Shown piece after piece: positions 1-31,929 of a stretch of DNA of 31,929 nt; the first letter of the stretch is position 1, and each line of letters opens with the position of its first letter. The translations under genes and the position numbers were made by a program. The notes under the pieces were generated by a model that saw only the letters and a program-made list of their open reading frames with translations, ran no database searches and was not told the DNA's origin. Source of the stretch: a virus; the IMG/VR virus record IMGVR_UViG_3300032288_004831, positions 1-31,929 of that record, one strand, 5' to 3'.

Positions 1-123
1 GAAAGACGGAAGAATTATTATTGACCCGAAGTGTAAAAGACTGATTCAAGATTTTGAAAAAGTTGTTTGGGATGGACAGGATTTAGATAAAAGAAGTGAC
101 GCATCATTGACCCACATTTCAGA
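1..123. repeat. Terminal redundancy, left copy (identical to 31807-31929)
   Basis: The first 123 bases are repeated without a difference as the last 123 bases of the window. The large terminase reading frame is open across the join in the same phase, so the two ends are one locus read twice. This is what a circular assembly or a circularly permuted headful genome looks like. It may reflect assembler overlap length and not a physical terminal repeat. Confidence 0.95.
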
Positions 124-196
124 TGCCTTGGGGTATTGGTGTTGGTCACTTGATAATATGGTTTACAGGACTCCGACTGCAATCAAATTAACGTGA
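2..196 (+). CDS. terL: Terminase large subunit, C-terminal 64 residues (continues from 31929)
   Basis: This is the 3' end of the large terminase gene that begins at 30734. The frame is open from base 2 to the TGA at 194-196. Joined across the 123-base overlap (30734-31806 plus 1-196) the protein is 422 residues. The tail contains RSDASLTHISDALGYWCW, a typical end of terminase nuclease domains with a conserved Asp in the SDALGY stretch. The gene ends 8 bases before the portal start codon, so terminase and portal are probably co-transcribed. It looks partial only because of where the circle was opened. Confidence 0.9.
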   Translation, partial: KDGRIIIDPKCKRLIQDFEKVVWDGQDLDKRSDASLTHISDALGYWCWSLDNMVYRTPTAIKLT

Positions 197-19781: not shown

Positions 19782-19960
19782 ACAAAGACAAAAAAGCCTC
19801 AATAGAAAGAATAAAAAATCAACTCGAACAAGCCAAGTTGAACTTGCGACTTGCATCAGAACATGATGATAAATGCGAGATAAGGGCATGGTCAAAACAA
19901 GTTAGACTGATTCAGGCTGTACTACAAAGAGTTCAGGAAATTTCGTCAAAGAAACCCTAA
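19772..19960 (+). CDS. Small coiled-coil protein, unknown
   Basis: 62 residues, starting inside the end of the spanin gene. It is almost wholly a charged amphipathic helix (KASIERIKNQLEQAKLNLRL), without a membrane segment. Its last 59 bases overlap the end of the oppositely directed rusA gene, so the two transcripts are convergent. It may be the last gene of the lysis operon. No function can be given. Confidence 0.5.
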   Translation: MSIDKDKKASIERIKNQLEQAKLNLRLASEHDDKCEIRAWSKQVRLIQAVLQRVQEISSKKP

Positions 19961-20375
19961 AAACCATTGTCGGCAAGTCATTAGTCGGTATTTTTTCAGT
20001 TATTATTTTCGTCACCTGCGAATCATCAATTTCAATCCACCTAAAAATTTGGTCAAAAGAAACTTTTATCATGTTGTCTAAATCCATTGATTTTTGACTT
20101 ACAGTTTTGAAGCCCTTTTTAGGTTTTGTGAAGAAGTCTGCTTCATTTAAGTAAAAGTACGCCTCAACTTGAATTGAGAACATTCTAGGGTCATAAACCT
20201 CAAGGATATGACTTTTCAATTCGCTGTATTGTCTTAGGTGCAGAAGAAATTCCTTCTCAAATTCGACCGCTTTTTCAGTCTTAATTCTTGATGCTCGCTT
20301 CCCAAATTTAACAATTCTATGAGATGCGTTAACCGAGATGGGCTTCATTGGTATTTGAAAAGAGATTGAAGTCAT
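19902..20375 (-). CDS. rusA: RusA-family Holliday junction resolvase
   Basis: 157 residues from the ATG complementary to 20373-20375. The catalytic signature of RusA is visible: D98, D100 and N101 in SMDLDNMIKVSFDQI and D117/D118 in IEIDDSQVTKI. Early residues PMKPISVNASHR and a basic stretch also fit. RusA homodimers cut four-way junctions, here likely resolving replication or recombination intermediates before packaging and complementing the RecT protein at 25.0 kb. It is separated from the main leftward block by a rightward gene, so it needs its own promoter or antisense read-through. A longer start at 20423 would overlap the neighbour. Confidence 0.9.
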   Translation of the reverse strand: MTSISFQIPMKPISVNASHRIVKFGKRASRIKTEKAVEFEKEFLLHLRQYSELKSHILEVYDPRMFSIQVEAYFYLNEADFFTKPKKGFKTVSQKSMDLDNMIKVSFDQIFRWIEIDDSQVTKIITEKIPTNDLPTMVFRVSLTKFPELFVVQPESV

Positions 20376-20421
20376 GCAACAATTAATACATGGATTATTC
20401 CAGAAAGCAAGGATGCTCACC

Positions 20422-21270
20422 ATGGAAAAGACAACTGTCCTGCCTCCACCGTTGCAAGGGATTGATACGTACTTCGTAGCATCGGACTGGCACTCATTTC
20501 ACATCAATCCTGCCTGTATATCAATTTTGATTCAGCACGCACTTCTCCACAAACCAGAAAACCGTCGGTTGATTATCAATGGTGACTTCCTTGATTTAGA
20601 ATTTTTCATGAAGAAAATGGAGAGTTATAGGAAACATATCTCAAGAATTGAGGGAATTGAAGACTATTTTCTTCCACTATATGAAGATGAAATTGAGTGG
20701 GGTAATAAATGCTTGGACTATCTGCAAAAGATTTTTACTGAAGTTATTTTCATTTCAGGAAATCACGATAAGCCAAGGGTAACCCAATTTTTGCACGACT
20801 GCCCCCAAGGTTATCACCACAACTTTGATTTTGAAAAATCACTAAAATTAAAGGAAAGAAAAATCACTTTTGTTGAGTATAACAATTGGCTTGATATTGG
20901 AGATGTTTCTTTGACTCATGGAATGTTTCACGGAACTTCAGCCATGAAGAAACATTACCTTGCTTGCGGTGCTAGGTCGTGCATATTTGGGCACATTCAT
21001 CATGACAATAAAGAATCTTTCATGGTTCGAGGAAAGACAAGACAAGTTTATTCCCTCCCAGCAATGTGCAATTTGAACCCTGAATATATTAAGAATCAGG
21101 AAACAAATTGGACAAATGGTTACGCTGTTTTAAATGTGAAGCAAAATGGACATTTCAACTATCACAGTTTCACAATTTGGGATAATCAGCTTGTTCTTCC
21201 AAGTGGAAAAGTACTTGAGTTAAAAGATGATGAAGTTGTGAAACTTTTATGTGAAGATAAAAATGGGTAG
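20422..21270 (+). CDS. Calcineurin-like metallophosphoesterase
   Basis: 282 residues. All five metallophosphatase motifs are present: D22-W-H24, NGD55FLDL, GNH115D116, H166 (LTHGMFH) and GH191-I-H193H. These bind two metals and hydrolyse phosphodiesters or phosphomonoesters. The closest shape is a stand-alone phage phosphoesterase; the substrate (nucleotide, DNA end, RNA) cannot be told. Start ATG 20422 is chosen for AAGGA at 20409-20413; ATG 20374 or 20413 would be alternatives. The gene points right while its flanks (rusA and 21332-26708) point left, so it could be a moron-type insert. Confidence 0.88.
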   Translation: MEKTTVLPPPLQGIDTYFVASDWHSFHINPACISILIQHALLHKPENRRLIINGDFLDLEFFMKKMESYRKHISRIEGIEDYFLPLYEDEIEWGNKCLDYLQKIFTEVIFISGNHDKPRVTQFLHDCPQGYHHNFDFEKSLKLKERKITFVEYNNWLDIGDVSLTHGMFHGTSAMKKHYLACGARSCIFGHIHHDNKESFMVRGKTRQVYSLPAMCNLNPEYIKNQETNWTNGYAVLNVKQNGHFNYHSFTIWDNQLVLPSGKVLELKDDEVVKLLCEDKNG

Positions 21271-21332
21271 TGAGCGCATCGCTACCCAATCGGGATCGAA
21301 GGCAAGGCAGTCATGGACGGTTGTCTTGTCTT
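21264..21332 (+). terminator. Two hairpins after the phosphoesterase gene, terminator candidate
   Basis: TGGGTAG (21264-21270) pairs with CTACCCA (21282-21288). A second stem of 11 bp with two G-T wobbles follows (21299-21309 with 21322-21332). The first covers the stop codon. The T-run after the second is short (TTT), so termination is plausible but not textbook. It separates convergent transcripts. Confidence 0.45.
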
Positions 21333-21445
21333 TAAAAAACCCTGAAGTCTAAAATCTTTTTTAATTTAACCCAAATTTTATGAAGCACAACACCGAAGAA
21401 AAGCCCGAGTGAAAAGCATTTTATTGCATACCATTCAACAATCAT
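21332..21445 (-). CDS. Tiny membrane protein, unknown
   Basis: 37 residues (MIVEWYAIKCFSLGLFFGVV, then LHKIWVKLKKILDF), read on the minus strand. Its ATG overlaps the stop of the metalloprotease gene as ATGA, which argues for real, coupled translation. Residues about 5-22 form a hydrophobic segment followed by a basic amphipathic tail, as in small inner-membrane proteins. The stop lies at the edge of the terminator-like stem of the opposite strand. No function is assigned. Confidence 0.5.
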   Translation of the reverse strand: MIVEWYAIKCFSLGLFFGVVLHKIWVKLKKILDFRVF

Positions 21446-21927
21446 AAAATAGCCTTGTAGATTTTCTTCCCAATTTCTGCAAAAATGTATGGCACTGACT
21501 TAGATTTATCTGCAAAATTACCAAGCATTTTGGCTCTCAAGCCATTTGGAAAGTTATTTCCATGCCCATAACCAAAAGGGTAATGACCAATTTCATGCAA
21601 TGCGTTTTCAAGATAGTCACCAGTCATTCTGTTTTCGGCACCATTCAAATTCACAAATATTTTATTATTTTGGGTCAATCCAATTACATTTGGATTTTTA
21701 TAAAAATATGGCTCAACTTCAATTTCAATTTTTGAAGCTTCAATCAAGTAAATCCACCTCAAGTAAACATCATTTGGGGTGTCTTTTGTGTATGTGAATG
21801 AATTAAATTTCAAAATTTCAGCACCAAAAAGAGGGTGATTTATAACTGATTCAGCGACTTTGTAGCCAATAGAAACATGAGTTAAGTTTTTATCTTCAAA
21901 TTGTTTTGAAATATTAAATTTTATCAT
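21442..21927 (-). CDS. Candidate zinc metalloprotease (HEIGH motif)
   Basis: 161 residues from the ATG at 21927, which has AGGA five bases before it; a longer frame from 21951 adds residues encoded by that ribosome binding site. The sequence H111-E112-I-G-H115, followed by G119 and H122, gives a zinc-protease HExxH pattern with a third His. Metzincins have HExxHxxGxxH; here the third His is one residue further, so it may be a divergent or matrixin-like member. The upstream part is beta-rich. There is no signal peptide. It is flanked by coupled tiny membrane proteins on both sides. The substrate is unknown; a host-interaction role is inference. Confidence 0.6.
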   Translation of the reverse strand: MIKFNISKQFEDKNLTHVSIGYKVAESVINHPLFGAEILKFNSFTYTKDTPNDVYLRWIYLIEASKIEIEVEPYFYKNPNVIGLTQNNKIFVNLNGAENRMTGDYLENALHEIGHYPFGYGHGNNFPNGLRAKMLGNFADKSKSVPYIFAEIGKKIYKAIL

Positions 21928-22082
21928 CTTTTTCCTATTGCTTCGAAGCATTGGTCAATTTTAATTTGAGCCAATTCCCTGTCAAAATAATTTTGTTCTG
22001 CTCCCTCAATGAAACCAAACCTGTATGTTAAAAGGCAAATTAAAAATCCTATCAAAAATTTAAATAATGTTACAAAGTTCAT
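21924..22082 (-). CDS. Small membrane protein upstream of the metalloprotease
   Basis: 52 residues on the minus strand, starting MNFVTLFKFLIGFLICLLTY. Residues about 3-20 are a strong hydrophobic segment, followed by Arg and then a charged C-terminal part (EGAEQNYFDRELAQIKID) likely in the cytoplasm or periplasm depending on orientation. The stop overlaps the metalloprotease start (ATGA), so translation is coupled. The ribosome binding site is weak (GGGA). It could localise the protease at the membrane. Not previously recognised by me. Confidence 0.55.
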   Translation of the reverse strand: MNFVTLFKFLIGFLICLLTYRFGFIEGAEQNYFDRELAQIKIDQCFEAIGKR

Positions 22083-22100
22083 TTTTTATTCCCAGTTTAT

Positions 22101-22250
22101 TTAAATAAACCCAATAAACTCATAGTTGTCCTGAAAAAAATCATAATTTTCATAATATTCATTTTCGTTGTCCGATAAGATAATGCAGAAATGATCATAG
22201 TCATAAAAAGCTATTTCAATTAAACCATATCTTTCATTGTAAAAAATCAT
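22101..22250 (-). CDS. Tyr/Asn/Asp-rich small protein, unknown
   Basis: 49 residues on the minus strand, with a very good GGAGGAG site and an ATGA overlap with the upstream gene stop. The product is acidic and aromatic (ERYGLIEIAFYDYDHFCIIL, then NENEYYENYDFF). Size, charge and position in an early operon fit small DNA-mimic or host-interaction proteins of phages, but no family is recognised and this is only a composition argument. Confidence 0.55.
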   Translation of the reverse strand: MIFYNERYGLIEIAFYDYDHFCIILSDNENEYYENYDFFQDNYEFIGFI

Positions 22251-22570
22251 TTCTCCTCCAATTCTTTTAATGCTTGTCTGGCAACCTCAAAAATTGAACC
22301 TCTGCTCATTGACATATATTCATCTCTTTTATAGTTCAAAATATACTCAACACACTCTCTCAGCTTTGCATTTTCATCTTGGAGTTTTTTAATTTTCTCA
22401 TCTCTTTCTATGTAGCAATCAATTGAATCAATCTCTTTCTGCTTATACTCGCAAGCGGCTTGCCATGCTTTACTTGGTGCTCCCATATTTAGTTTAACAA
22501 CCCTTTCAAGATGTGTCTCACCCAGTAGTCCAAACCATTGATCAAACGCTTCTCTGTCTTTATCGTTCAT
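22247..22570 (-). CDS. Early-region helical protein, unknown
   Basis: 107 residues with AGAGG before the ATG. It starts with NDKDREAFDQWF and has a WQAACEYKQKEIDSI segment, then a coiled coil (IKKLQDENAKLRECVEYIL) and ends RQALKELEEK. This combination is common in small accessory proteins of phages of Gram-negative bacteria, where a conserved AWQAAC-type stretch is followed by a leucine-zipper-like helix. No function is established to my knowledge. It is the first gene of the leftward segment following the 22571-22752 control region. Confidence 0.6.
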   Translation of the reverse strand: MNDKDREAFDQWFGLLGETHLERVVKLNMGAPSKAWQAACEYKQKEIDSIDCYIERDEKIKKLQDENAKLRECVEYILNYKRDEYMSMSRGSIFEVARQALKELEEK

Positions 22571-22752
22571 AAAACCTCTGTATTTTTGTCACATCTTTTG
22601 TGTAAAATTTATGTAATTTTATTAGTTAAATTCCAGTATGTGACCACTTTTGTCACTTAGTAGAAAATGAACCACCGCAAGACGCAACGGTGGCTAACAC
22701 ACATTAACCGAAGTTATGTCTCAAGCTTAAAAAGCACGCCTCTTGAGTTTTT
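22571..22752. promoter_or_regulatory. Non-coding control region with repeated TTTTGTCAC boxes and a hairpin
   Basis: This 182-base gap lies within the leftward block. TTTTGTCAC occurs at 22584-22592 and 22648-22656; the second is part of the inverted repeat GTGAC-N7-GTCAC (22640-22656), so both could be sites for the XRE protein encoded at 23239. CCACCG (22672-22677) pairs with CGGTGG (22688-22693) in a stable hairpin. A plus-strand terminator follows at 22720-22754. An AT-rich stretch between the boxes could hold the leftward promoter for 22570; I see no convincing -35/-10 pair. Confidence 0.5.
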
Positions 22753-22754
22753 TT
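22720..22754 (+). terminator. Rightward intrinsic terminator candidate inside the leftward block
   Basis: CTCAAG (22720-22725) pairs with CTTGAG (22742-22747) around a 16-nt loop and is followed by seven T on the plus strand. Every neighbouring gene reads the other way, so it could end a short plus-strand RNA starting in 22580-22680, or block antisense transcription. Confidence 0.5.
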
Positions 22755-22980
22755 ATTCAATTTTATGACCGTATTTAATTAAAATTTCTTTTGCCTTTTC
22801 GCCTTCATCATCCAAAATTCTAGGGTAACCATAACCTTCTCTTTCGTTCCAATTATTTTTATCTTGATAGAACCATAGGACATCAAATAATTGTGAAATT
22901 TGAAACTGTAATTTTTTTATTTCTGCTTCTCGAATTTGAATAATTTTTTCAAATGCCTCGCACTTGTCATGCAATATCAT
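22753..22980 (-). CDS. Small helical protein downstream of the XRE gene
   Basis: 75 residues from ATG 22980, with GAGG upstream; a TTG start four codons earlier lacks spacing. It has a coiled-coil N-terminal half (CEAFEKIIQIREAEIKKLQF) and a Trp/Tyr-rich middle (LWFYQDKNNWNEREGYGY). The start lies inside the XRE gene end, so expression is coupled with the regulator. No function is recognised. Confidence 0.55.
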   Translation of the reverse strand: MILHDKCEAFEKIIQIREAEIKKLQFQISQLFDVLWFYQDKNNWNEREGYGYPRILDDEGEKAKEILIKYGHKIE

Positions 22981-23239
22981 TGTAAACCTCAAGGTATAAA
23001 GCTCGTTTATAGTCTTCGCACATTGCTAGAATGATTTCCTCAACTGGAACACCAAGAGCAAGTGAAAGACTTTTTACAGACTTTGAAGGGAGTTGGCACT
23101 TTCCTTTTTCAATGTTGCTAATGTATTGAGCGTTTTTATTATTCCACCCCAACTTGCTACCAACATCGTACTGACTCATTTTTAATTCAGTTCTTTTTTT
23201 GAAAATTAGATCACTAACAGAATGTGATTTCAGAATCAT
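22967..23239 (-). CDS. XRE-family helix-turn-helix regulator
   Basis: 90 residues. Residues about 10-65 match an XRE/Cro-CI HTH: LIFKKRTELKMSQYDVGSKL (helices 1-2), NNKNAQYISNIEKGKC (recognition helix region) and SVKSLSLALGVPVEEI (end of the domain). GAGGT precedes the ATG with good spacing. It lacks the C-terminal cleavage domain of lambda-type CI repressors, so it is a Cro-like or small regulator. Possible operators are the TTTTGTCAC boxes at 22584 and 22648. With no integrase in the genome, it is not proof of lysogeny. Confidence 0.85.
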   Translation of the reverse strand: MILKSHSVSDLIFKKRTELKMSQYDVGSKLGWNNKNAQYISNIEKGKCQLPSKSVKSLSLALGVPVEEIILAMCEDYKRALYLEVYNDIA

Positions 23240-23552
23240 CTTGTACCTCGGATAATTTAATTGGTTTTTCTAGTGTTGCCTTATCTACTACTTTATAACC
23301 GTATTTTCTTTGAAATTCGTTGTAACATTCAACATATAAAAGATGAAGGTCTGCAATAACATCATCTTTATTTTCAAACTTTCCTTGTTTATTTCTTTTG
23401 AAAACTTCTTCACACATAGATAATGAACCACCAAGATAAGAACATTCAAGATCACCATTATAAATGTTTTTTGGAAGCTTCACGTTAAAACTATTTTTGT
23501 ATCTCGTTTGCATAAAACCATTAATAAATTTTCTCATTTCATTTAAAAACAT
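23214..23552 (-). CDS. Early protein following the structured leader, unknown
   Basis: 112 residues with AGAGG before the ATG. It starts NEMRKFINGFMQTRYKNSF and contains a helical middle (IADLHLLYVECYNEFQRKYG) and an acidic end. The 5' leader is the 23553-23662 region with two hairpins, including a terminator just upstream of the ribosome binding site, so its expression may be attenuated. Its end overlaps the XRE start by 26 bases. No family is recognised. Confidence 0.6.
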   Translation of the reverse strand: MFLNEMRKFINGFMQTRYKNSFNVKLPKNIYNGDLECSYLGGSLSMCEEVFKRNKQGKFENKDDVIADLHLLYVECYNEFQRKYGYKVVDKATLEKPIKLSEVQDDSEITFC

Positions 23553-23567
23553 AATTCCTCTTTTTTT

Positions 23568-23594
23568 AAAAAAGGCAGTCGGGAACCTAGCCTT
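23568..23594 (-). terminator. Leftward intrinsic terminator in the 23.6 kb leader
   Basis: On the minus strand AAGGC (complement of 23590-23594) pairs with GCCTT (complement of 23572-23576) around a 13-nt loop and is followed by six T (23568-23573). The stem is short, but the T-run is clean. Its loop contains CCCGACT, complementary to the loop of a hairpin further upstream. Confidence 0.55.
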
Positions 23595-23658
23595 AATTCA
23601 GTTCTGGAGTTTGGCAAAAAAAAGGAGTAATTTTGCCTCAGAAGCCCGACTCTTCTGA
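23568..23658 (-). ncRNA. Structured leader with predicted kissing loops
   Basis: Read on the minus strand: stem 1 TCAGAAG/CTTCTGA (23638-23644 with 23652-23658, 7 bp, loop AGTCGGG); stem 2 GGCAAAA/TTTTGCC (23613-23619 with 23631-23637, 7 bp); then the terminator stem, whose loop contains CCCGACT (23577-23583). The 7-nt loop of stem 1 and this loop are perfectly complementary. This occupies the whole gap between two genes of the leftward operon. Confidence 0.55.
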
Positions 23659-23662
23659 ATGA

Positions 23663-23869
23663 TCAATTTAATTTAAAAATGTCAGCACTCCACCTTTTTG
23701 GTGTTGAGTCTTTTTTCTGGTATTTGTAATTCTTTCTCAAAAAGCCCTGAGTGACTCGCTGTTCTTCATTAGTTTCTGGGTCAATTATTACCGCATTAAT
23801 TGCGTCAATTCTTCTGACATAAAACTTTTTTCCTGAAGTAATTTCTTTATAAACCAATTTGTTTTTCAT
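23663..23869 (-). CDS. Small basic protein after the HNH gene
   Basis: 68 residues. Its ATG overlaps the HNH stop (ATGA). It is basic and beta-rich at first (KLVYKEITSGKKFYVRRIDA, INAVIIDPETN), with a KNYKYQKKDSTPKRW segment later. This could be a small DNA- or RNA-binding protein. It ends just before the structured leader. No family is recognised. Confidence 0.55.
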   Translation of the reverse strand: MKNKLVYKEITSGKKFYVRRIDAINAVIIDPETNEEQRVTQGFLRKNYKYQKKDSTPKRWSADIFKLN

Positions 23870-24144
23870 GCTTCCCTCGATTTATGAACCCATTTTTTAA
23901 GTGAATTTAATCTCATCCAATTATTTTGTTCCAACCATCTTTCAACTGACTTGTATTTTGATGCCATAAAATCAATTCCCTTGCTGTGAAATTGGTTGTG
24001 ATGTTCTTGGCATACTGAAATTTTATTCCAGATTCTTTCTGAAAATTCTGGATGCGCTTTTCTAGTGTATAGATGGTGGTAGCAAACAAAACCAGATTCT
24101 TGTCGCCCACAACATACACAAGGTTCGGTTGATTCATAACTCAA
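23866..24144 (-). CDS. HNH-like zinc-binding nuclease
   Basis: 92 residues from a TTG start at 24144 that overlaps the upstream stop (TTGA) and has GGAGG five bases before. It has a metal-binding and HNH-like layout: C9, C11 and C12, C21, H23-H24, then C45 and H48-H49 with N50 and H53 (CQEHHNQFH). Such small proteins in recombination operons are usually structure-specific or nicking endonucleases. ATG 24137 in another frame gives a shadow ORF without this pattern. It is in the RecT operon, so a role in recombination or replication is likely. Confidence 0.72.
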   Translation of the reverse strand: MSYESTEPCVCCGRQESGFVCYHHLYTRKAHPEFSERIWNKISVCQEHHNQFHSKGIDFMASKYKSVERWLEQNNWMRLNSLKKWVHKSREA

Positions 24145-24392
24145 ACAACCCTCCAAAACTTTTCCATCTTCCCAAATTCACCCATTATTTCTTCTCCAGT
24201 TTGCTCGATAATTCCGTGTGCTTCCATCGGAGCAAAATGTTTGTTTAAATGAACATAGTATCTCCAACCAATTTCAATCATCTCTTCTTTGTTAAAGTTA
24301 TTAATGTCATCCTGATATAAGGAATCTATCACTTGGTTGATTGTCGCTTTTCTTAGTTTTTGCAGTCTTAGAACGAGTCTTTTTCTTTTCAT
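24141..24392 (-). CDS. Small winged-helix-like protein, unknown
   Basis: 83 residues from ATG 24392, overlapping the end of the exonuclease gene by 86 bases. The basic N-terminus (MKRKRLVLRLQKLRKATINQ) leads into helices ending PMEAHGIIEQTGEE, which resembles the third helix and wing of winged-helix DNA-binding domains. It could be a replication-initiator fragment or a recombination accessory. The long overlap leaves the start uncertain; GTG 24332 is a shorter alternative. A frame from 24500 would overlap far more and is not supported. Confidence 0.5.
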   Translation of the reverse strand: MKRKRLVLRLQKLRKATINQVIDSLYQDDINNFNKEEMIEIGWRYYVHLNKHFAPMEAHGIIEQTGEEIMGEFGKMEKFWRVV

Positions 24393-25002
24393 CGGTGTTG
24401 TCCGAAAGCTCAATAAAGTTTGTAAATCCATCGTTTGCTCCCTGTGAGTGTAAAATCTTGAATAATTCTTGGCACGCATTTCTGTCCGAGTCAGCATCAT
24501 GATGCTTCAGTTCAATTCCGTAGTGTTTGCACAAAGAATCTAAACTGAATGACTCGCATTGCACTTTTGCACTTTGAGCCATTGTCAAAGTTGAAACTGT
24601 TTTGCCAATATATTTTCTTTTTTCCCAAATCTCATTAGTCAAGAAAAGTTGGCAGTCAATGAAAGCAGAATCAAAATATTTCCCAAACCACTTCGCATGA
24701 CAAACCATCAACTGAGGTTTTGATGCGTATGCTTTCAGAAAATTAAGAAACCGTTTCATTTCTTTTCTTTGTTCTGTAAACTTCATGGCTTGATCGAGTG
24801 AAATGCCATGGATTTCTTCAGACTCTTGTGAAAAGAATTTTGGTCGGGTTGGTCTAAATTGGAAAAGTTCTTTATCAAGCTCATTATATCCATCAATTTG
24901 CATTGCAGAGACTGAGAGGGTTAAAATCTCATTTCTCCAATAATCTAGACCAGTCGTTTCAATATCAATCACAAAAGCCAAATCAATCCATGGGGAAAAC
25001 AT
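24307..25002 (-). CDS. DnaQ-like DEDDh 3'-5' exonuclease
   Basis: 231 residues from ATG 25002, three bases after the recT stop and with GAGGT upstream. Motifs: D13 and E15 in VIDIETTG (Exo I), D111 in KYFDSAF (Exo II), and H168 with D173 in HHDADSDRNAC (Exo III), the DEDDh set. EEIHGIS at about 62-68 is also typical. The C-terminal 40 residues are lysine-rich and disordered. The protein digests DNA or RNA from the 3' end; next to recT it could prepare single strands for annealing, although classical RecT partners are of another fold. Confidence 0.9.
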   Translation of the reverse strand: MFSPWIDLAFVIDIETTGLDYWRNEILTLSVSAMQIDGYNELDKELFQFRPTRPKFFSQESEEIHGISLDQAMKFTEQRKEMKRFLNFLKAYASKPQLMVCHAKWFGKYFDSAFIDCQLFLTNEIWEKRKYIGKTVSTLTMAQSAKVQCESFSLDSLCKHYGIELKHHDADSDRNACQELFKILHSQGANDGFTNFIELSDNTDEKKKTRSKTAKTKKSDNQPSDRFLISG

Positions 25003-25003
25003 T

Positions 25004-25945
25004 TTAGACCTCAATCTTGAAAGAAGGTTTTGCGTGAATGGTTGCTTCTCTCAATTTTCGTTCTTTAATGTTTTCGTGAATTTTATTGGTAATTAATTTA
25101 AGTTCTTCAATTGGCTTTGAATCGAGTTCTGAAAACTTATTTATGCCACAAAATTCTTTCATTGCTGAAGCTTTGTCTGAAGCTGGCTTTCCTTCAGTCA
25201 ACTCTCCAAGAAGGTCTCTAATTCCTGCAATTAAAGATTTAATTTCTGCAACTGATTCAGGTTTTGATTTTTCTAAAATAGCCTCAACCTTTTCAACTCT
25301 CTGAATTGCTTTTACTTCAATTGCATTATTTTCAGCCGACTTATCAAATTCATTTGTGACAGCTTCCATTTCCTCTTCACAATACATTCCAGATAAAGCT
25401 TCGGGGAAAGCCCTGCGTAATGCACCAGATAAGGCACACTTTTCAATCATCATGTAAGGCTTTGATGCCCAAGTTCCTGATGCTTCCATTCTTCCGTTTG
25501 ATTTGTTTTCTTTTGTTTGAACATACTCATCAAAATAAGCCGTGTATGGAAACTCCCTTCCCCTTCTTTTTACAACGCAAGTTGATGCCAACATTTTTTT
25601 TGCTTCAAAAGTGTTTATGTCAAACTTATCCACGAGGTCAGTTTTGAGAGTATAACCCTCATAGTCACCCGTTTGGTTTGCAATTGCTTGAATAAAATTG
25701 TATGAGAATACAACAGTGCCGACTTTTTTCCACTCAAAACCGACTTTTGTATTTCTTTCAATCAAGAAAATTTGATTCAAACTTGGGTTTGCTCCAGTTT
25801 GTTGAGCTTTGTGAATGAACTCGATAATATCCGACTTCGGAAGTTCTTTGTGTTTTTCAAAAAGCATTTTGAGATAATTTTCTTCAAAAGACCTTTTTAC
25901 ATCTTGAGTCAATTGTATGTTTGAAAATGTTGTGATGTTGCTCAT
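25004..25945 (-). CDS. recT: RecT/Red-beta family single-strand annealing protein
   Basis: 313 residues with AAGGA before the ATG. The N-terminal two thirds carry the RecT fold pattern: ANPSLNQIFLI (about 52-62), VVFSYNFIQAIA (about 78-89), and the diagnostic WASKPYMMIEKCALSGALRR with AFPEALSGMYCEEE (about 159-192). The C-terminal third is helical and charged and may interact with a host SSB or a partner exonuclease. RecT-like proteins bind single strands and anneal complementary DNA during phage replication or circularisation. It is encoded with exonuclease, HNH and Gp157-like genes in one leftward operon. Confidence 0.93.
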   Translation of the reverse strand: MSNITTFSNIQLTQDVKRSFEENYLKMLFEKHKELPKSDIIEFIHKAQQTGANPSLNQIFLIERNTKVGFEWKKVGTVVFSYNFIQAIANQTGDYEGYTLKTDLVDKFDINTFEAKKMLASTCVVKRRGREFPYTAYFDEYVQTKENKSNGRMEASGTWASKPYMMIEKCALSGALRRAFPEALSGMYCEEEMEAVTNEFDKSAENNAIEVKAIQRVEKVEAILEKSKPESVAEIKSLIAGIRDLLGELTEGKPASDKASAMKEFCGINKFSELDSKPIEELKLITNKIHENIKERKLREATIHAKPSFKIEV

Positions 25946-25946
25946 A

Positions 25947-26189
25947 TTAATCCTTAAAATTTATTAGAATGTTTGCCACGCTTGAACCAAAGTATTTTTT
26001 TAAATCAAGCGGTGGAATTTCTTCTGGGTTTGCTTGTTCTGAAGCAGTGAAACCTAGATCACCAGAACAGTGATATAAGCCCTCGTGAAGGTTTGCCACT
26101 GTCACCTTATAAATTCCCAATGTGACACATATTGCTTCACACTTTAACCCTGCTGATGATGTATAAGTACCTTTTTTAATTTCTAACAT
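25947..26189 (-). CDS. Small recombination-operon protein, unknown
   Basis: 80 residues with AAGGAG before the ATG, between the Gp157-like and recT genes and one base from the latter. It is beta-rich at first (GLKCEAICVTLGIYKVTVAN), with HEGLYHCSGDLGF and a Pro/acidic segment. Conserved placement suggests a role with RecT, but no domain is recognised. Confidence 0.6.
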   Translation of the reverse strand: MLEIKKGTYTSSAGLKCEAICVTLGIYKVTVANLHEGLYHCSGDLGFTASEQANPEEIPPLDLKKYFGSSVANILINFKD

Positions 26190-26198
26190 AATTTCTCC

Positions 26199-26708
26199 TT
26201 ATTTTAATGAGTATTGAATTGAAGTTTTACCGTCCACTAGTCTTGCACCTTCGATAATTTCACCAGCTTTCAAACAACGAGCAATTTCAGCTTTCATGAT
26301 TATCGGTTTTGGTTCTGGTATTTTAATGAACTCTATTGGAATTTTTGTTTCATCCACAATTTCGACCGCTGGTGTTGGCTTCCGTTTTTTAATTTTGCAA
26401 AATTTGCCTTCAAAAGTGTCTTTGTCATGAATAGCCATGCAGTTTGAAACATACGCATCAAATCTTTCCATCTTCTTTTGAATTTGGTCTTCACGAGCAA
26501 TTAGTTCATCAATTTTTTCAGTCAATAATTCAGAATAAGCTTTCAGCGATTCTCGGTAATGTGCAACTTGATCGGTTTTTTCCATCAGGGCAACCGACAA
26601 AGAAACCAAGCGATTGTTTTCTTCATCTGAAGTTGTGGTTAAATTTTCGAGATTTTCGAGCAGGTTTTTGATTTCTAACTCAATGTGGAATAGCGACATT
26701 TCATTCAT
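26199..26708 (-). CDS. Siphovirus Gp157-like protein
   Basis: 169 residues with AAGGAG upstream, the first gene of the leftward operon. Residues about 1-95 form a long coiled coil (ELEIKNLLENLENL, AREDQIQKKMERFDAYVSNC) followed by a beta-rich basic part (FEGKFCKIKKRKPTPAVEIV) and ends KTSIQYSLK, matching the Sipho_Gp157 layout. The family occurs beside recT or erf genes in many siphoviruses and has been proposed to act as a host-nuclease inhibitor or recombination accessory; the mechanism is not established here. Confidence 0.82.
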   Translation of the reverse strand: MNEMSLFHIELEIKNLLENLENLTTTSDEENNRLVSLSVALMEKTDQVAHYRESLKAYSELLTEKIDELIAREDQIQKKMERFDAYVSNCMAIHDKDTFEGKFCKIKKRKPTPAVEIVDETKIPIEFIKIPEPKPIIMKAEIARCLKAGEIIEGARLVDGKTSIQYSLK

Positions 26709-27150: not shown

Positions 27151-28092
27151 ATGGCTCATGAATTTGAATCTGGTTTTTTAGTAAAAGAAGCGGCATGGCA
27201 CAAACTTGGGACTGTTATACAAGAAGCCCCAACAATCGAAGAGGGAATCCGACTTGCAGGGCTTGACTGGAAAGTTAGCATGGAAAACCTTTTTCTTGCT
27301 GATGGAAGAATCACGACTCAAAAAGCTGTCATCCGTGAAACTGATAAAAGAATTTTAGGCTATGGTGGAGAAAATTGGACACCGTTACAAAACACTGAAG
27401 CATTTGCGTTTTTTGATGAATTTCTTAAAACCAATGAAGTTCAACTTGAGACTGCAGGTTCATTACGTCAGGGTCAAAGGATTTGGGTCTTAGCACGAAT
27501 TAAATCAGCAATTGGTGAAGTCATAAAGGGTGACCCAATACAACGGTATTTCATGCTTTCTAACGCCCATACTCGAGGTTTTGCGGTGAGCGTAGGTTTT
27601 ACGGATGTTCGAATTGTATGTAAAAACACTTTAGCCATGGCTGAACAATCGGGAAATTCTAAACTTTTGAGGATTCATCATTCAAGAAATGTGGCTCAAA
27701 ATTTGGATGAAATCAAATCAATCATTAATTTTTCAACCCAAGGATTTCAGGCTGATTTGCAAAAAATGGAAAGATTGACTAAAAAAGGAATAAATCAAAA
27801 AGATATTCAAAAATTTGTTGAAACAATATTTTTTGACCCAAGAACTCTCGACTCAAAAAGGTCACAAAACAAACTTGGGTTTATTACTGACAAAATAAAT
27901 GAACTCATCGAAGTCGGTCTGGGTGCAGAAATTTCAGGTGTAAAAGGAAACGCATACGGATTATATCAAGCCACAACTGAATATTTGACGCATTATGACG
28001 GCAAAGACTATGAGCAAAGACTCGATAAACTTTGGAATGGTGCAAACAAAAGCAAAAACGAAAAAGCATTAGAATATTTGCTAGTTGCATAA
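27151..28092 (+). CDS. DUF932 phage/plasmid-like protein
   Basis: 313 residues with GGGAGG before the ATG. It starts AHEFESGFLVKEAAWHKLGT, contains YGGENWTPLQNTEAFAFFDE, then RYFMLSNAHTRGFAVSVGFT and VRIVCKNTLAMAE, the hallmarks of the DUF932/TIGR03299 family carried by many phages and plasmids. The family is associated with replication or recombination neighbourhoods, but its activity is not established. It is the first large rightward gene of the early region, which suggests early expression. No truncation is apparent. Confidence 0.9.
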   Translation: MAHEFESGFLVKEAAWHKLGTVIQEAPTIEEGIRLAGLDWKVSMENLFLADGRITTQKAVIRETDKRILGYGGENWTPLQNTEAFAFFDEFLKTNEVQLETAGSLRQGQRIWVLARIKSAIGEVIKGDPIQRYFMLSNAHTRGFAVSVGFTDVRIVCKNTLAMAEQSGNSKLLRIHHSRNVAQNLDEIKSIINFSTQGFQADLQKMERLTKKGINQKDIQKFVETIFFDPRTLDSKRSQNKLGFITDKINELIEVGLGAEISGVKGNAYGLYQATTEYLTHYDGKDYEQRLDKLWNGANKSKNEKALEYLLVA

Positions 28093-28327: not shown

Positions 28328-28339
28328 TCCATCTAATTA

Positions 28340-28371
28340 TTGTATCAATTATTGATGACTATACAATTTTT
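28340..28371 (+). terminator. AT-rich intrinsic terminator candidate
   Basis: TTGTAT (28340-28345) pairs with ATACAA (28361-28366), followed by five T (28367-28371). An inner palindrome (ATCAAT-T-ATTGAT) fills the loop. The stem is AT-only apart from one G-C pair, so strength is uncertain. It would separate the DUF932 operon from the RNA and module downstream. Confidence 0.45.
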
Positions 28372-28429
28372 ACAACAATCCACTTTTTAGTTTTAATTCC
28401 AAGCCAAAATCATTAAATATAAATTATCA

Positions 28430-28706
28430 ATCGGGGGGCTCCACAAGCCTCTCCCTATTACGTGTGATTGATGCTAACGGGATAAATTGTGGTTGGACGA
28501 CTGAAGCCGAAGGGTTGAAAGAAGTTCAAGGGTGAACTTGCACCCAATTAGAATTATCAAGTCGCTAATCCAAATAGGGTCAAATTAGAAAGCACTTCCA
28601 ACTTAATGACATGATGTCGGTACACTTTACGGTGGCGATTGGAACGAGAAAGCAATACCAATAAAAGCTTTAATGAAATGTTATTAAAGCGGTATTTTGG
28701 AACTCC
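28430..28706 (+). ncRNA. Candidate structured RNA upstream of the ParB-TET/JBP module
   Basis: No coding frame is visible in 28328-28780, yet the stretch from 28430 is less AT-rich and holds several good stems: 28433-28440 with 28446-28453 (8 bp, two wobbles); 28522-28528 with 28533-28539 (7 bp perfect, loop AGGG); 28547-28551 with 28565-28569, inside 28542-28545 with 28577-28580; 28596-28601 with 28639-28644; and 28654-28659 with 28691-28696 enclosing 28667-28674 with 28683-28690 (8 bp perfect). A TATAAA at 28418-28423 could be the -10 of its own promoter. I do not recognise a known RNA class. Confidence 0.5.
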
Positions 28707-28778
28707 TTTGCCTCAGAATTGAAAAAAACTTTTACAACATCATTTTTCTTTGTTCACATCAAAAATTATCGGGAGTTC
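28697..28778 (+). promoter_or_regulatory. Possible ribosome-binding-site sequestration before parB
   Basis: GAACTCC (28700-28706) is perfectly complementary to GGAGTTC (28772-28778), which contains the GGGAG ribosome binding site of the ParB-like gene; a G-T pair extends it to 8 bp. TTGGAA at 28697-28702, overlapping the same sequence, can instead pair with TTCCAA at 28596-28601 in the upstream RNA, so the two pairings exclude each other. Confidence 0.45.
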
Positions 28779-28780
28779 AA

Positions 28781-29395
28781 ATGGAAATCAAATCAACTGA
28801 AATTCAAATTGTAGATATAAACGCATTAATTCCAAATCCAAAAAATAATAACAAACACCCAAAAGAACAAATTGAAAGACTTGCTCAATTGATCAAATAC
28901 CAAGGATTCAGAAACCCATTGGTAGTTTCAAAAAGATCAGGTTTTGTTTTGTGTGGTCATGGTCGAATTGAAGCCGCTAAATTAGCAGGATTAAAACAAG
29001 TTCCAGTCATGTTTCAAGAATTTGAAAGTGAAGCTCAAGAATATGCTTATTTGACAAGTGATAATGCCATAGCTTCTTGGGCTGAGTTAGATTTGAGTAT
29101 GGTTAATTCAGAAATGCTAGACCTTGGACCAGATTTTGAAGTTGGTTTGTTGGGTATTAAAGACTTTTCAATTGAACCTTTTGAAAAATACGAAAGCTCA
29201 AATGAAGAGAACGGAAAAGGTGCGCTTGATAAACTTGAAAAGTATTTAGATAAAGACTTTTTAGAAGTCAAACTGGAATTTAACAAAGAAGAATATGATG
29301 AATTTATTTTTCTAGCTTCTGAAGTTATGAAAGAAATGAACAGCGAAATAATGAGTGATGCACTTCTTGGGTATTTAAAAAAATGGAAAGAATAA
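28781..29395 (+). CDS. ParB-like nuclease-fold protein
   Basis: 204 residues from ATG 28781 with GGGAG upstream; a TTG start at 28697 would fall in the structured leader. Residues about 8-85 are a ParB/Srx-type domain: IPNPKNNNKHPKEQIERLAQ, GFRNPLVVS, the signature GHGRIEAAKLAGL, then VPVMF. A helical region (about 85-110, AYLTSDNAIASWAELDL) and an acidic C-terminal part follow. In phages this domain is often tied to DNA modification or methylase genes. Here it is followed, with a 13-base overlap, by the TET/JBP-like dioxygenase. Whether it binds DNA or cuts it is unknown. Confidence 0.88.
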   Translation: MEIKSTEIQIVDINALIPNPKNNNKHPKEQIERLAQLIKYQGFRNPLVVSKRSGFVLCGHGRIEAAKLAGLKQVPVMFQEFESEAQEYAYLTSDNAIASWAELDLSMVNSEMLDLGPDFEVGLLGIKDFSIEPFEKYESSNEENGKGALDKLEKYLDKDFLEVKLEFNKEEYDEFIFLASEVMKEMNSEIMSDALLGYLKKWKE

Positions 29396-30240
29396 CAATT
29401 GAACCAGTAAAAACACATTTTAAAGCTGGGGACTACCCTTCAAAACCAACTGGCAAACTCATTGATTATGAAGTTGAGGTATTTAATAATTCTGGTGAAC
29501 TTATTTTGGGTTATTATAAGTGTCCAGAAAATATATTTAAGATAGCAAAAGAAATTTGCAAAAACACAAAACCAACAAAAAGCACAAGAACAAGACATGG
29601 GGTTCCACAATTATCAACAGTTTATGGACCACTTCCACGAATTCCAATTAGAGAAGACTACTGTAGGTTTTCAGCAAAAAGCAAAGAAGAAAAAAACAAC
29701 TATTTAAAAGCCATAAAATTAAATGAGTTGCTTGCAGAATTTTACAAAGAAAAACACAATTCACTTTATGAAAAGGCATTTAAAAAAGTTAAAGAAGAAG
29801 TAAACGCTGATTATTTCACAGCAAATACGCCTTGGACAAATGTGAACATAAACCTAAACCAAGTTATTAAATACCATGTAGACAATGGGAATAACCCCGA
29901 AGACCTTTCAAATGTTTTAATTGTCAAAGAAGGTGTTGATGGTGGTTTTCTTGACTGCCCAGAACTTGGTCTTACTTTGCACCAAGGAAACGGTTGGATT
30001 TGTTTTTTTAGGGGTCAAGAACTTTTGCACGGTGTGACGCCATGTTCTTTTAAAGGTAAAACCTCTTTTCGGTGCTCAATTGTAAACTACACTTTGAAAA
30101 ACTTAAAACATTGCTACCCTTACGAGCAGGAATTAAAGAGACTTAAAGAAGTAAAAACAAGACAAGCTTTGAACAAAAAAGAAAGCCTATTGAAACTGAA
30201 AGAGTATTATAACAGAGCAAAAGCCAAGAAAAATACATAA
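29383..30240 (+). CDS. TET/JBP-family 2-oxoglutarate/Fe(II) dioxygenase
   Basis: 285 residues. The core lies at about residues 145-240: WTNVNINLNQVIKYHVDNGN gives the iron ligands H165 and D167 after an N-x-N strand, H216 in ELLHGVTP is the third ligand, and R230 in SFRCSIVNYTL is the 2-oxoglutarate-binding Arg. The N-L-N then H-x-D-x-x-N spacing is characteristic of TET/JBP enzymes, which oxidise the methyl of 5-methylcytosine or thymine in DNA. The C-terminus is a basic helix. It is coupled to the ParB-like gene and lies before terS, suggesting action on DNA before packaging. No methyltransferase is encoded. Confidence 0.82.
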   Translation: MERITIEPVKTHFKAGDYPSKPTGKLIDYEVEVFNNSGELILGYYKCPENIFKIAKEICKNTKPTKSTRTRHGVPQLSTVYGPLPRIPIREDYCRFSAKSKEEKNNYLKAIKLNELLAEFYKEKHNSLYEKAFKKVKEEVNADYFTANTPWTNVNINLNQVIKYHVDNGNNPEDLSNVLIVKEGVDGGFLDCPELGLTLHQGNGWICFFRGQELLHGVTPCSFKGKTSFRCSIVNYTLKNLKHCYPYEQELKRLKEVKTRQALNKKESLLKLKEYYNRAKAKKNT

Positions 30241-30339: not shown

Positions 30340-30750
30340 ATGTCAGATGAAATTAAGCGTCAAAAGAAGCATGGCTTCCAAGGCACACTGTATAAAGACG
30401 AATATTGTCAAGAATTGATCAAACACATGAGTCAGGGTTATTCCTTCGAGTCGTTTGGTGCAGTCATTAATTGTGGCAGGAAAACACTTTTTGAGTGGTG
30501 TCACAGCCACCCTGAATTTAAAGAAGCCAAATACATTGGGCACGAAAAAGCTAAAAAGATATTTGAAACAATTCTTTTAACCAAGTTAACTGGAAAAGAC
30601 TCTCCAAGTGTTAACGTCAAAACATCTTCAGACAGGCTTCTCGAATTTGCTTTAAAAACGAGATTCAAAGAATCTTATTCTGAAAGAATTGAAGTTGCCC
30701 AAGCTGGTGAAATAAAAATTGTCATTGACCAGAATGACTCAGAGCTTTAA
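30340..30750 (+). CDS. terS: Terminase small subunit
   Basis: 136 residues. An N-terminal helix-turn-helix (HMSQGYSFESFGAVINCGRK, then TLFEWCHSHPEFKEA) is the DNA-recognition domain typical of small terminases. A helical oligomerisation part follows (about 65-115), and the acidic C-terminus likely contacts the large subunit. It recognises the packaging site and starts genome cutting. The last 17 bases overlap the terL start. Only a weak AAGG site (30331-30334) precedes it. Confidence 0.88.
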   Translation: MSDEIKRQKKHGFQGTLYKDEYCQELIKHMSQGYSFESFGAVINCGRKTLFEWCHSHPEFKEAKYIGHEKAKKIFETILLTKLTGKDSPSVNVKTSSDRLLEFALKTRFKESYSERIEVAQAGEIKIVIDQNDSEL

Positions 30751-31929
30751 AAAAACAGAAAGACAGAATCAGGCTATTAATTTATTAAGCAATCCACTTG
30801 CTCGGTATATTATGCTTTTCGGTGGTTCAAGGTCAGGGAAGACTTTTATCGCTATTTATGCTTTATGTGTCAGAGCCGCAAAAGAAAGATCAAGGCACGT
30901 TATTCTAAGGCTGAAATTTAACCACGTTAAAACTTCAATATGGATGGACACACTTCCAAAAGTTCTTCGGTTGTGTTTTCCAGACTTGAAAGTTGAATTT
31001 CGTTACTCGGACTTTTATGTTGTTTTCCCAAATGGTTCTGAAATATGGGTCGGAGGTCTTGACGATGCGGCACGAGTTGAGAAAATTCTAGGGAAAGAAT
31101 ATTCCACAATCTATTTCAATGAGTGCTCACAAATCCCATATAAGTCGGTTGAAATTGCTTTGACTCGTTTGGCTGAAAAAAACAATCTTAAGAAAAAAGC
31201 TTATTTTGATGAAAACCCTCCGACTAAAAAACATTGGTCGTATTGGATTTTTATTAAAGGTGTCCACCCTGAAACTTCTGATAAAATAGACTTAGAAAAA
31301 TACCAATCAATTCTAATGAACCCAAAAGACAATCTTGAAAATATTGATGAAGAGTACATTTCTGAGGTTCTCAATAATCTTTCAGAAAACGAGAGAAAAC
31401 GTTTCCGTGATGGGGAGTTCCTTGACTCGGATGAAGGTCAAGCATATTACGCTTTTCAAAGAGAAATCAATGTTCATTCATTCGATAAAAGAAATGCTTC
31501 TGGCACAATAATGATAGGCATGGACTTTAACGTAAACCCAATGACTGCGGTTGTCGGGTATTATCAAGACAATAAGTTCAATGTAATTGATGAAGTTTGG
31601 TTGGAAAACAGTGATACTTATAAAATGAGCATCGAGCTCATAAAACGTGGATACAAAGGTGCTTGGATTTTTCCTGACTCAACTGGTAAAAATAGAAAGA
31701 CCTCGGGAAAGTCAGACCACTTGATTTTGAAAGATGATGGGTTCATTGTTAAAGATACCAGAAACCCATTTGTGAAAGACAGAATCAACAATGTTAATAG
31801 ACTTTTGAAAGACGGAAGAATTATTATTGACCCGAAGTGTAAAAGACTGATTCAAGATTTTGAAAAAGTTGTTTGGGATGGACAGGATTTAGATAAAAGA
31901 AGTGACGCATCATTGACCCACATTTCAGA
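30734..31929 (+). CDS. terL: Terminase large subunit (runs off the window; ends at 196)
   Basis: Starts at ATG 30734 inside terS and stays open to the window end; the full 422-residue product is completed by 2-196. The ATPase domain shows a variant Walker A, GGSRSGKT at 30-37, and a Walker B ending STIYFNE at 124-130. The RNase-H-like nuclease domain begins with D264 in IGMDFNVNPM, with WIFPDST further on. The protein packages DNA by ATP hydrolysis and cuts concatemers, docking on the portal encoded next. Routine ORF listing misses it because it has no stop in the window. Confidence 0.95.
   Translation, partial: MTQSFKKTERQNQAINLLSNPLARYIMLFGGSRSGKTFIAIYALCVRAAKERSRHVILRLKFNHVKTSIWMDTLPKVLRLCFPDLKVEFRYSDFYVVFPNGSEIWVGGLDDAARVEKILGKEYSTIYFNECSQIPYKSVEIALTRLAEKNNLKKKAYFDENPPTKKHWSYWIFIKGVHPETSDKIDLEKYQSILMNPKDNLENIDEEYISEVLNNLSENERKRFRDGEFLDSDEGQAYYAFQREINVHSFDKRNASGTIMIGMDFNVNPMTAVVGYYQDNKFNVIDEVWLENSDTYKMSIELIKRGYKGAWIFPDSTGKNRKTSGKSDHLILKDDGFIVKDTRNPFVKDRINNVNRLLKDGRIIIDPKCKRLIQDFEKVVWDGQDLDKRSDASLTHIS
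31807..31929. repeat. Terminal redundancy, right copy
   Basis: Identical to bases 1-123; see the left copy. It lies in the terL nuclease domain and should be counted once in the genome. Confidence 0.95.

Follow-up and report, generated by a model that had tools for sequence, protein, structure and literature searches.

An overlapping ParB-like and TET/JBP-like gene pair before the phage terminase genes: a putative adaptor and writer of DNA base oxidation

What might a TET/JBP-like dioxygenase do in a phage whose genome holds its gene overlapped with that of a ParB-like protein, just before the terminase genes, and in which no methyltransferase or glycosyltransferase is recognised? The locus lies in the window, by which we mean the whole 31,929-nucleotide stretch of viral DNA analysed here. 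The first and last 123 bp of the window are identical (direct repeat at 1-123 and 31807-31929), and it is therefore a complete circular contig with a unit of 31,806 bp. The best explanation overall, whose chances we put somewhat above even, is a module of adaptor and writer in which the ParB-like protein would direct the dioxygenase, and thymine would be converted to 5-hydroxymethyluracil (5hmU) before packaging. The features on which this proposal turns are the following:

28781-29395, plus strand: putative ParB-like adaptor, 204 aa (PF02195, 1.2e-8; model nearest 6sdk)
Residues 1 to about 145 of that protein: ParB N-domain, common to ParB::methyltransferase fusions
Residues about 146-204 of that protein: ParB tail, of the type seen with TET partners (tail profile)
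29383-29395, plus strand: 13 nt shared by the end of ParB and the beginning of TET (sequence)
29383-30240, plus strand: predicted TET/JBP 2-oxoglutarate/Fe(II) dioxygenase, 285 aa (PF12851, 5.1e-12; alignment of 100 relatives; model; Foldseek)
30340-30750, plus strand: terminase small subunit, terS (phrog_309, 3.3e-13), the neighbour that fixes the slot of the pair
30719-31929 and on across the circular join into 1-196, plus strand: terminase large subunit, terL (profile match, 8.6e-87, and the 123-bp end repeat)

The nearest relative of the window is L002/G001, a 32.1-kb contig with similar gene content, although several structural proteins are only 27-57% identical between the two and TerL is 64.7% identical. 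Matches to the window TerL and to its DUF932 protein are distant and taxonomically mixed, so no host is assigned; a scan of bacterial genomes returned a single Brevibacterium locus. Neither Rfam nor a tRNA search found anything in the window.

The product of 29383-30240 is, judging from its sequence and its predicted structure, very probably a TET/JBP DNA dioxygenase, as the original prediction held. The Tet_JBP profile search (PF12851) proposed with that prediction matches the 285-aa open reading frame at 45.8 bits, over a cut-off of 34.9. The residues that had been named, H165, D167, H216 and R230, which form the HxD...H iron site and the 2-oxoglutarate arginine, are exact and conserved: in an alignment of 100 dereplicated relatives H165, D167 and H216 are invariant along with N157, and R230 and Y236 are invariant in every row in which the column is filled. 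This conserved Y236 aligns with the base-stacking aromatic residue of TET2 and NgTet1. A structural model built from 50 relatives (mean pLDDT 87) retrieves NgTet1 first from the PDB with Foldseek (E 2.5e-12), and ranks 1-26 are all NgTet1, CcTet, TET2 or CMD1, with AlkBH3 and FTO only after them. Membership of an unrelated 2-oxoglutarate family, the finding that was to overturn the prediction, is thus rejected, the TET/JBP folds being nearest. A profile search against PDB sequences likewise retrieves TET2, CcTet, NgTet1 and CMD1; profiles were required here, as plain phmmer with the single window TET gave chance matches only. In the TET tree, the window and L002 (81% identical) make one deep, isolated branch, and the enzyme is therefore a divergent form and no trimmed copy of the actinophage module.

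The ParB-like partner that had been claimed is confirmed by both profile and fold. PF02195 (ParB_N) matches at 35.3 bits (cut-off 26.3), and the nearest fold to the model is a chromosomal ParB with CDP bound (6sdk, E 5.6e-7). The gene opens with an ATG at 28781, with GGGAG just 5' of it, and has an alternative, longer TTG start at 28697. No helix-turn-helix was matched in the protein by Pfam, nor was ParA among the Pfam hits of the scanned window reading frames. The Box-II arginine of ParB is required for nucleotide binding (PMC12704722), and the window protein keeps it (Box II GHGR), as do 30 of 30 marine-type ParBs vs only 5 of 60 others; most non-marine relatives have Thr, Gln or Leu in its place, and nucleotide binding is therefore no general feature. 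Between the window and L002, ParB is 82% identical, and the low dN (0.12 for ParB, 0.15 for TET) with saturated dS for both indicates that both genes are strongly constrained by purifying selection.

Coordinates, the 13-nt overlap and the place just before terS all agree with the original prediction, and the overlap would imply translational coupling. The same prediction regarded a pair tied to the terminase as unusual, a view that does not survive comparison. We assembled 100 dereplicated TET loci from viral contigs, scanned with three alignments, and from annotated phages. Of the 97 that are testable, 93 have a same-strand ParB as the gene immediately upstream of TET, and 79 of the 100 have terL downstream, in the same orientation and no more than about 5.5 kb away. 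As the loci were retrieved through their TET sequences, starting from seeds most of which had a ParB, these proportions describe the clades sampled rather than all phage TETs. Two more loci have ParB upstream at a short distance, three are untestable, and two, in Nonlabens phage P12024L and Caulobacter phage Cr30, have no ParB beside TET. ParB presence was settled by six-frame search; an apparent absence at 14 loci was mostly an artefact of the simple gene caller, which missed ParBs in high-GC DNA. Among the adjacent pairs, 79 of 83 overlap by 1-44 nt. Isolated phages with the pair include Terij, Tonitrus, Prince, Klevey, Nigel, Kharcho, Altadena and HTVC112P. Across 48 loci, TET and ParB distances correlate with r 0.93, and with a partial r of 0.79 given TerL distance (0 of 999 permutations). 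The locus thus holds a TET/JBP-fold gene with all catalytic residues and an overlapping, co-inherited upstream ParB-fold gene, in a fixed slot before terS, and we think it highly likely that the two proteins act together.

The less common part of the locus is only the absence of a further enzyme. Of the 69 loci whose flanks are long enough, 61 have at least one accessory gene, which is in almost every case a TAGT glycosyltransferase (PF20691), FkbM (PF05050), a P-loop kinase (PF18751) or an amino acid:DNA transferase (ADDT, PF18724); the window joins the eight long loci with none. The lack of a methyltransferase and a glycosyltransferase had been claimed from the outset, and the searches bear it out: PF00145 (C5-methyltransferase) was absent from all six frames of the window and PF20691 was not found in it, no DNA methyltransferase or glycosyltransferase exceeded the Pfam cut-off among its 30 proteins, and home-made profiles of TAGT, FkbM, the PF18751-type kinase and ADDT had no match anywhere in the window, which is the whole genome. 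Mycobacterium phage Nigel was considered as an exact ParB-TET-terS-terL match and dropped, the gene annotated there as 'terminase small subunit' (L008 1786-2382) being a PF18751 P-loop kinase (242 bits), likely a base-modification kinase.

What, then, is the substrate? The original prediction left a choice between thymine and 5-methylcytosine (5mC) supplied by the host; the thymine option is now favoured, with the host-5mC option kept as its rival. No C5-methyltransferase was found in 45 of the 50 ParB-TET records searched, nor any by motif within the sampled TET loci. Enzymes downstream of TET in relatives include the PF18751 kinase and ADDT, which we take to be parts of the proposed thymine-type (5hmU) hypermodification. 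Eight residues after the 2-oxoglutarate arginine, TET2 (RISLVFYQH) and NgTet1 (RIGLVYFAH) have a histidine that we assume to be a base contact; the window has Leu238, its larger sister group Leu, Lys, Ile or Met, and the marine group Arg, with never a His in 99 aligned rows. On these three indirect grounds the substrate is probably thymine rather than 5mC. The rival is that the host, or a phage enzyme that escaped recognition, makes 5mC, which TET then oxidises to 5-hydroxymethylcytosine or beyond, as mammalian TET does. Its appeal is that the nearest solved folds are 5mC oxidases, that the residue three after the iron-site aspartate (D+3) is Asn as in TET2, where it presumably has a role, and that many TET relatives carry TAGT glycosyltransferases, enzymes also found in cytosine-type TET systems. 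The missing methyltransferase, the base-contact position without His, and the kinase and ADDT of relatives, which indicate thymine, all speak against 5mC, and we consider this rival unlikely.

The role of ParB was probed by a second search, started from ParB rather than from TET. L002 aside, the nearest N-domains to that of the window belong to N6/N4 methyltransferase fusions and not to TET loci; identity to window ParB residues 1-145 is 77% in the fusion of L255 and 68% in that of L256. In L255, ParB::methyltransferase is followed by terS, which has 85% identity to its L002 counterpart. At the DNA level, L002 and L255 are 85-92% identical over the ParB N-domain (L002 781-1140), near chance over about 1170-2220, where the ParB tail and TET face the methyltransferase domain, and back at 72-92% over most of terS (2221-2520). 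This is a natural exchange between ParB tail plus TET and a methyltransferase domain, flanked by the same ParB N-domain and terS, clear in one relative (L255) and supported at lower identity by L256. In close relatives, then, the same adaptor is joined to a different DNA-modifying enzyme, which gives it the look of an interchangeable part for bringing such enzymes to phage DNA.

Writers other than TET occupy the same position. Of 80 ParB loci, 50 are long fusions of ParB to a writer, with a [DNS]PP[YF] motif in 49 of the 50. Separate partners assigned with Pfam (n=23) are Mom (7), Tet_JBP (6), TAGT (3), ABC_tran (3), C5-methyltransferase (2), N6/N4 methyltransferase (1) and FkbM (1). Nearly all classified partners are DNA- or base-modifying enzymes or their accessories. 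In isolated phages, ParB precedes DpdA/QueCDE in Hedgerow and Sour, Psychrobacter phage Y8A has the order ParB, Mom, terS, terL, Daisy has ParB with a PAPS-reductase-like enzyme and terminase, and Vincenzo has a ParB-like protein with a weak methyltransferase match below the cut-off. DpdB is itself a ParB-like ATPase partner of DpdA (PMC12839542, PMC6392294), phage ParB domains, which bind various NTPs, are frequent fusion partners of DNA methyltransferases (PMC12704722), and ParBc proteins accompany phage carboxymethyltransferases, with a function given there as unknown (PMC12783734). A profile of the TET-linked tail matches 8 of 8 separate TET-partnered ParBs (E 5e-17 to 0.03), a set of loci some of which are mutually related and one of which (L254) is the same contig as L002, itself in the profile; it matches none of the Mom-partnered ParBs (E >= 0.5) and 0 of 50 fusions at E 0.01. 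Four ParBs followed by TAGT or an unclassified gene match it weakly (E 0.005-0.011). A common N-domain and a tail that tracks writer type fit the adaptor model.

In that model, the ParB N-domain would bind DNA, and probably nucleotide too, and would set the time or place of modification, while the tail would dock the writer; through both, ParB would load or hold TET on replicated phage DNA. Whether ParB gives the choice of site is, in our judgement, evenly balanced. TET would then hydroxylate the C5-methyl of thymine to 5hmU at a subset of sites in replicated phage DNA, and the modified DNA would be packaged by the adjacent terminase. As the module has no glycosyltransferase, kinase or amino-acid transferase, the end product would be 5hmU or a further oxidised form, and the benefit would likely be the shielding of virion DNA from host nucleases. 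A wider version, tentative and as a whole more apt to fail than to hold, would make the ParB N-domain a general adaptor for unrelated writers (N6/N4 and C5 methyltransferases, Mom, DpdA, PAPS-reductase-like enzymes and TET), with docking by the tail and recombination of writer and tail as a cassette, and here with thymine oxidised to 5hmU at ParB-chosen sites by no other modification enzyme than TET.

Two further readings compete with the adaptor model. ParB could serve the terminase region in partition, in regulation or at a packaging site, with TET acting alone and the two being neighbours by position only. The slot after ParB near the terminase does hold varied genes and the N-domain fold is nearest to a chromosomal ParB, both of which suit such a role; yet almost all of the classified genes in the slot modify DNA or bases or assist enzymes that do, the writer is fused to ParB in the majority of ParB loci, the tail tracks the writer, ParA is missing from the window's Pfam hits, and the TET-ParB distance correlation exceeds that expected via TerL, which together make neighbourhood by position quite improbable. 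That the dioxygenase acts on RNA or protein, or is inactive, draws on the varied substrates of 2-oxoglutarate enzymes and is, to our minds, very improbable indeed in view of catalytic residues retained in 100 relatives, a gene under purifying selection, nearest folds that are DNA-acting TETs, and an exchange in place with a DNA methyltransferase.

How does the pair compare with known systems? Phage TET/JBP enzymes and their ParB neighbours are known already. In actinobacteriophages (Microbacterium Terij, Mycobacterium Prince and Nigel, Arthrobacter Kharcho) ParB likewise overlaps or adjoins TET upstream of the terminase, with no C5-methyltransferase near, and some of these TETs are annotated 'Tet-like J-binding protein' or 'thymidine hydroxylase'. 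Unlike the window, these modules as a rule include a PF18751 kinase, ADDT or glycosyltransferase as well; their TETs are 21-28% identical to that of the window, and their ParB Box II is mostly GNHx rather than GHGR. Pelagibacter phage HTVC112P-type modules share the overlap of ParB and TET ahead of terL but add an FkbM enzyme, which the window is without, and their TET has Asp at D+3 and Arg at R+8, where the window has Asn and Leu. The ParB::N6/N4 methyltransferase fusions (L255, L256; PHROG 498; survey PMC12704722) have the same N-domain in the same place before terS, with a covalently attached methyltransferase domain as the writer in place of a separate TET. In the DpdA-DpdB 7-deazaguanine systems a ParB-family partner adjoins the base-modifying enzyme, as in the window (PMC12839542), and the Hedgerow and Sour DpdA loci have the same order of gene 1 and gene 2; the writer there is a transglycosylase that exchanges guanine rather than a TET, and Pfam gave no transglycosylase or preQ0 match in the window. 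The eukaryotic JBP1/JBP2 pathway to base J likewise has a TET/JBP oxygenase for which thymine is the proposed substrate, along with a J-binding domain and a glucosyltransferase, neither of which is in the window. From the phage C5-methyltransferase-TET-glycosyltransferase hypermodification systems the window differs in having neither the methyltransferase (PF00145) nor the TET-associated glycosyltransferase (PF20691). As far as the literature searched shows, what is new is the divergent enzyme-only pair in this phage group, the writer swap at sequence level and the correspondence of tail and writer.

If the adaptor model is true, ParB beside many phage DNA-modification enzymes would be explained as a common targeting part. 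The L255/L002 swap offers matched modules of one ParB N-domain and two writers, in which any ParB-set sites become directly comparable. A two-gene module for thymine to 5hmU, if true, would also give a simple means of oxidising and labelling DNA at chosen sites.

Several smaller observations concern relatives of the two genes. Phage TET genes (e.g. L008 776-1744) are widely labelled 'queuine tRNA-ribosyltransferase', a label that stems from PHROG 6059; this family contains TETs (the Nigel TET scores 553 bits against it), and the label looks like a transferred error. A TET relative also occurs at NZ_CP027794.1 13810-14430 (hit H161), in the record of a 92-kb Prescottella equi plasmid, possibly a phage-plasmid. 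In Pseudoalteromonas phage SL25 (L253 2423-4026), ParB overlaps an ABC-ATPase and GNAT-like protein right before terS and terL, with similarly sized pairs in L283, L320 and L326; the SL25 protein is a possible candidate for a further DNA-modification writer. In L266 and L294 a TAGT-type glycosyltransferase directly follows ParB.

Around the pair itself, the roughly 450 nt between a small open reading frame and ParB (28328-28780) hold no open reading frame of 60 aa except the TTG-extended ParB start, and have no Rfam match; they might house a promoter or a packaging site. Upstream, 27151-28092 encodes the DUF932 protein (PF06067, 8.7e-41; phrog_1221), which is frequent in unrelated phages. The early module on the minus strand (19902-26708) comprises a RusA resolvase, an HNH protein, a DnaQ-like exonuclease, a RecT annealing protein and Sipho_Gp157, and suggests recombination-dependent replication.
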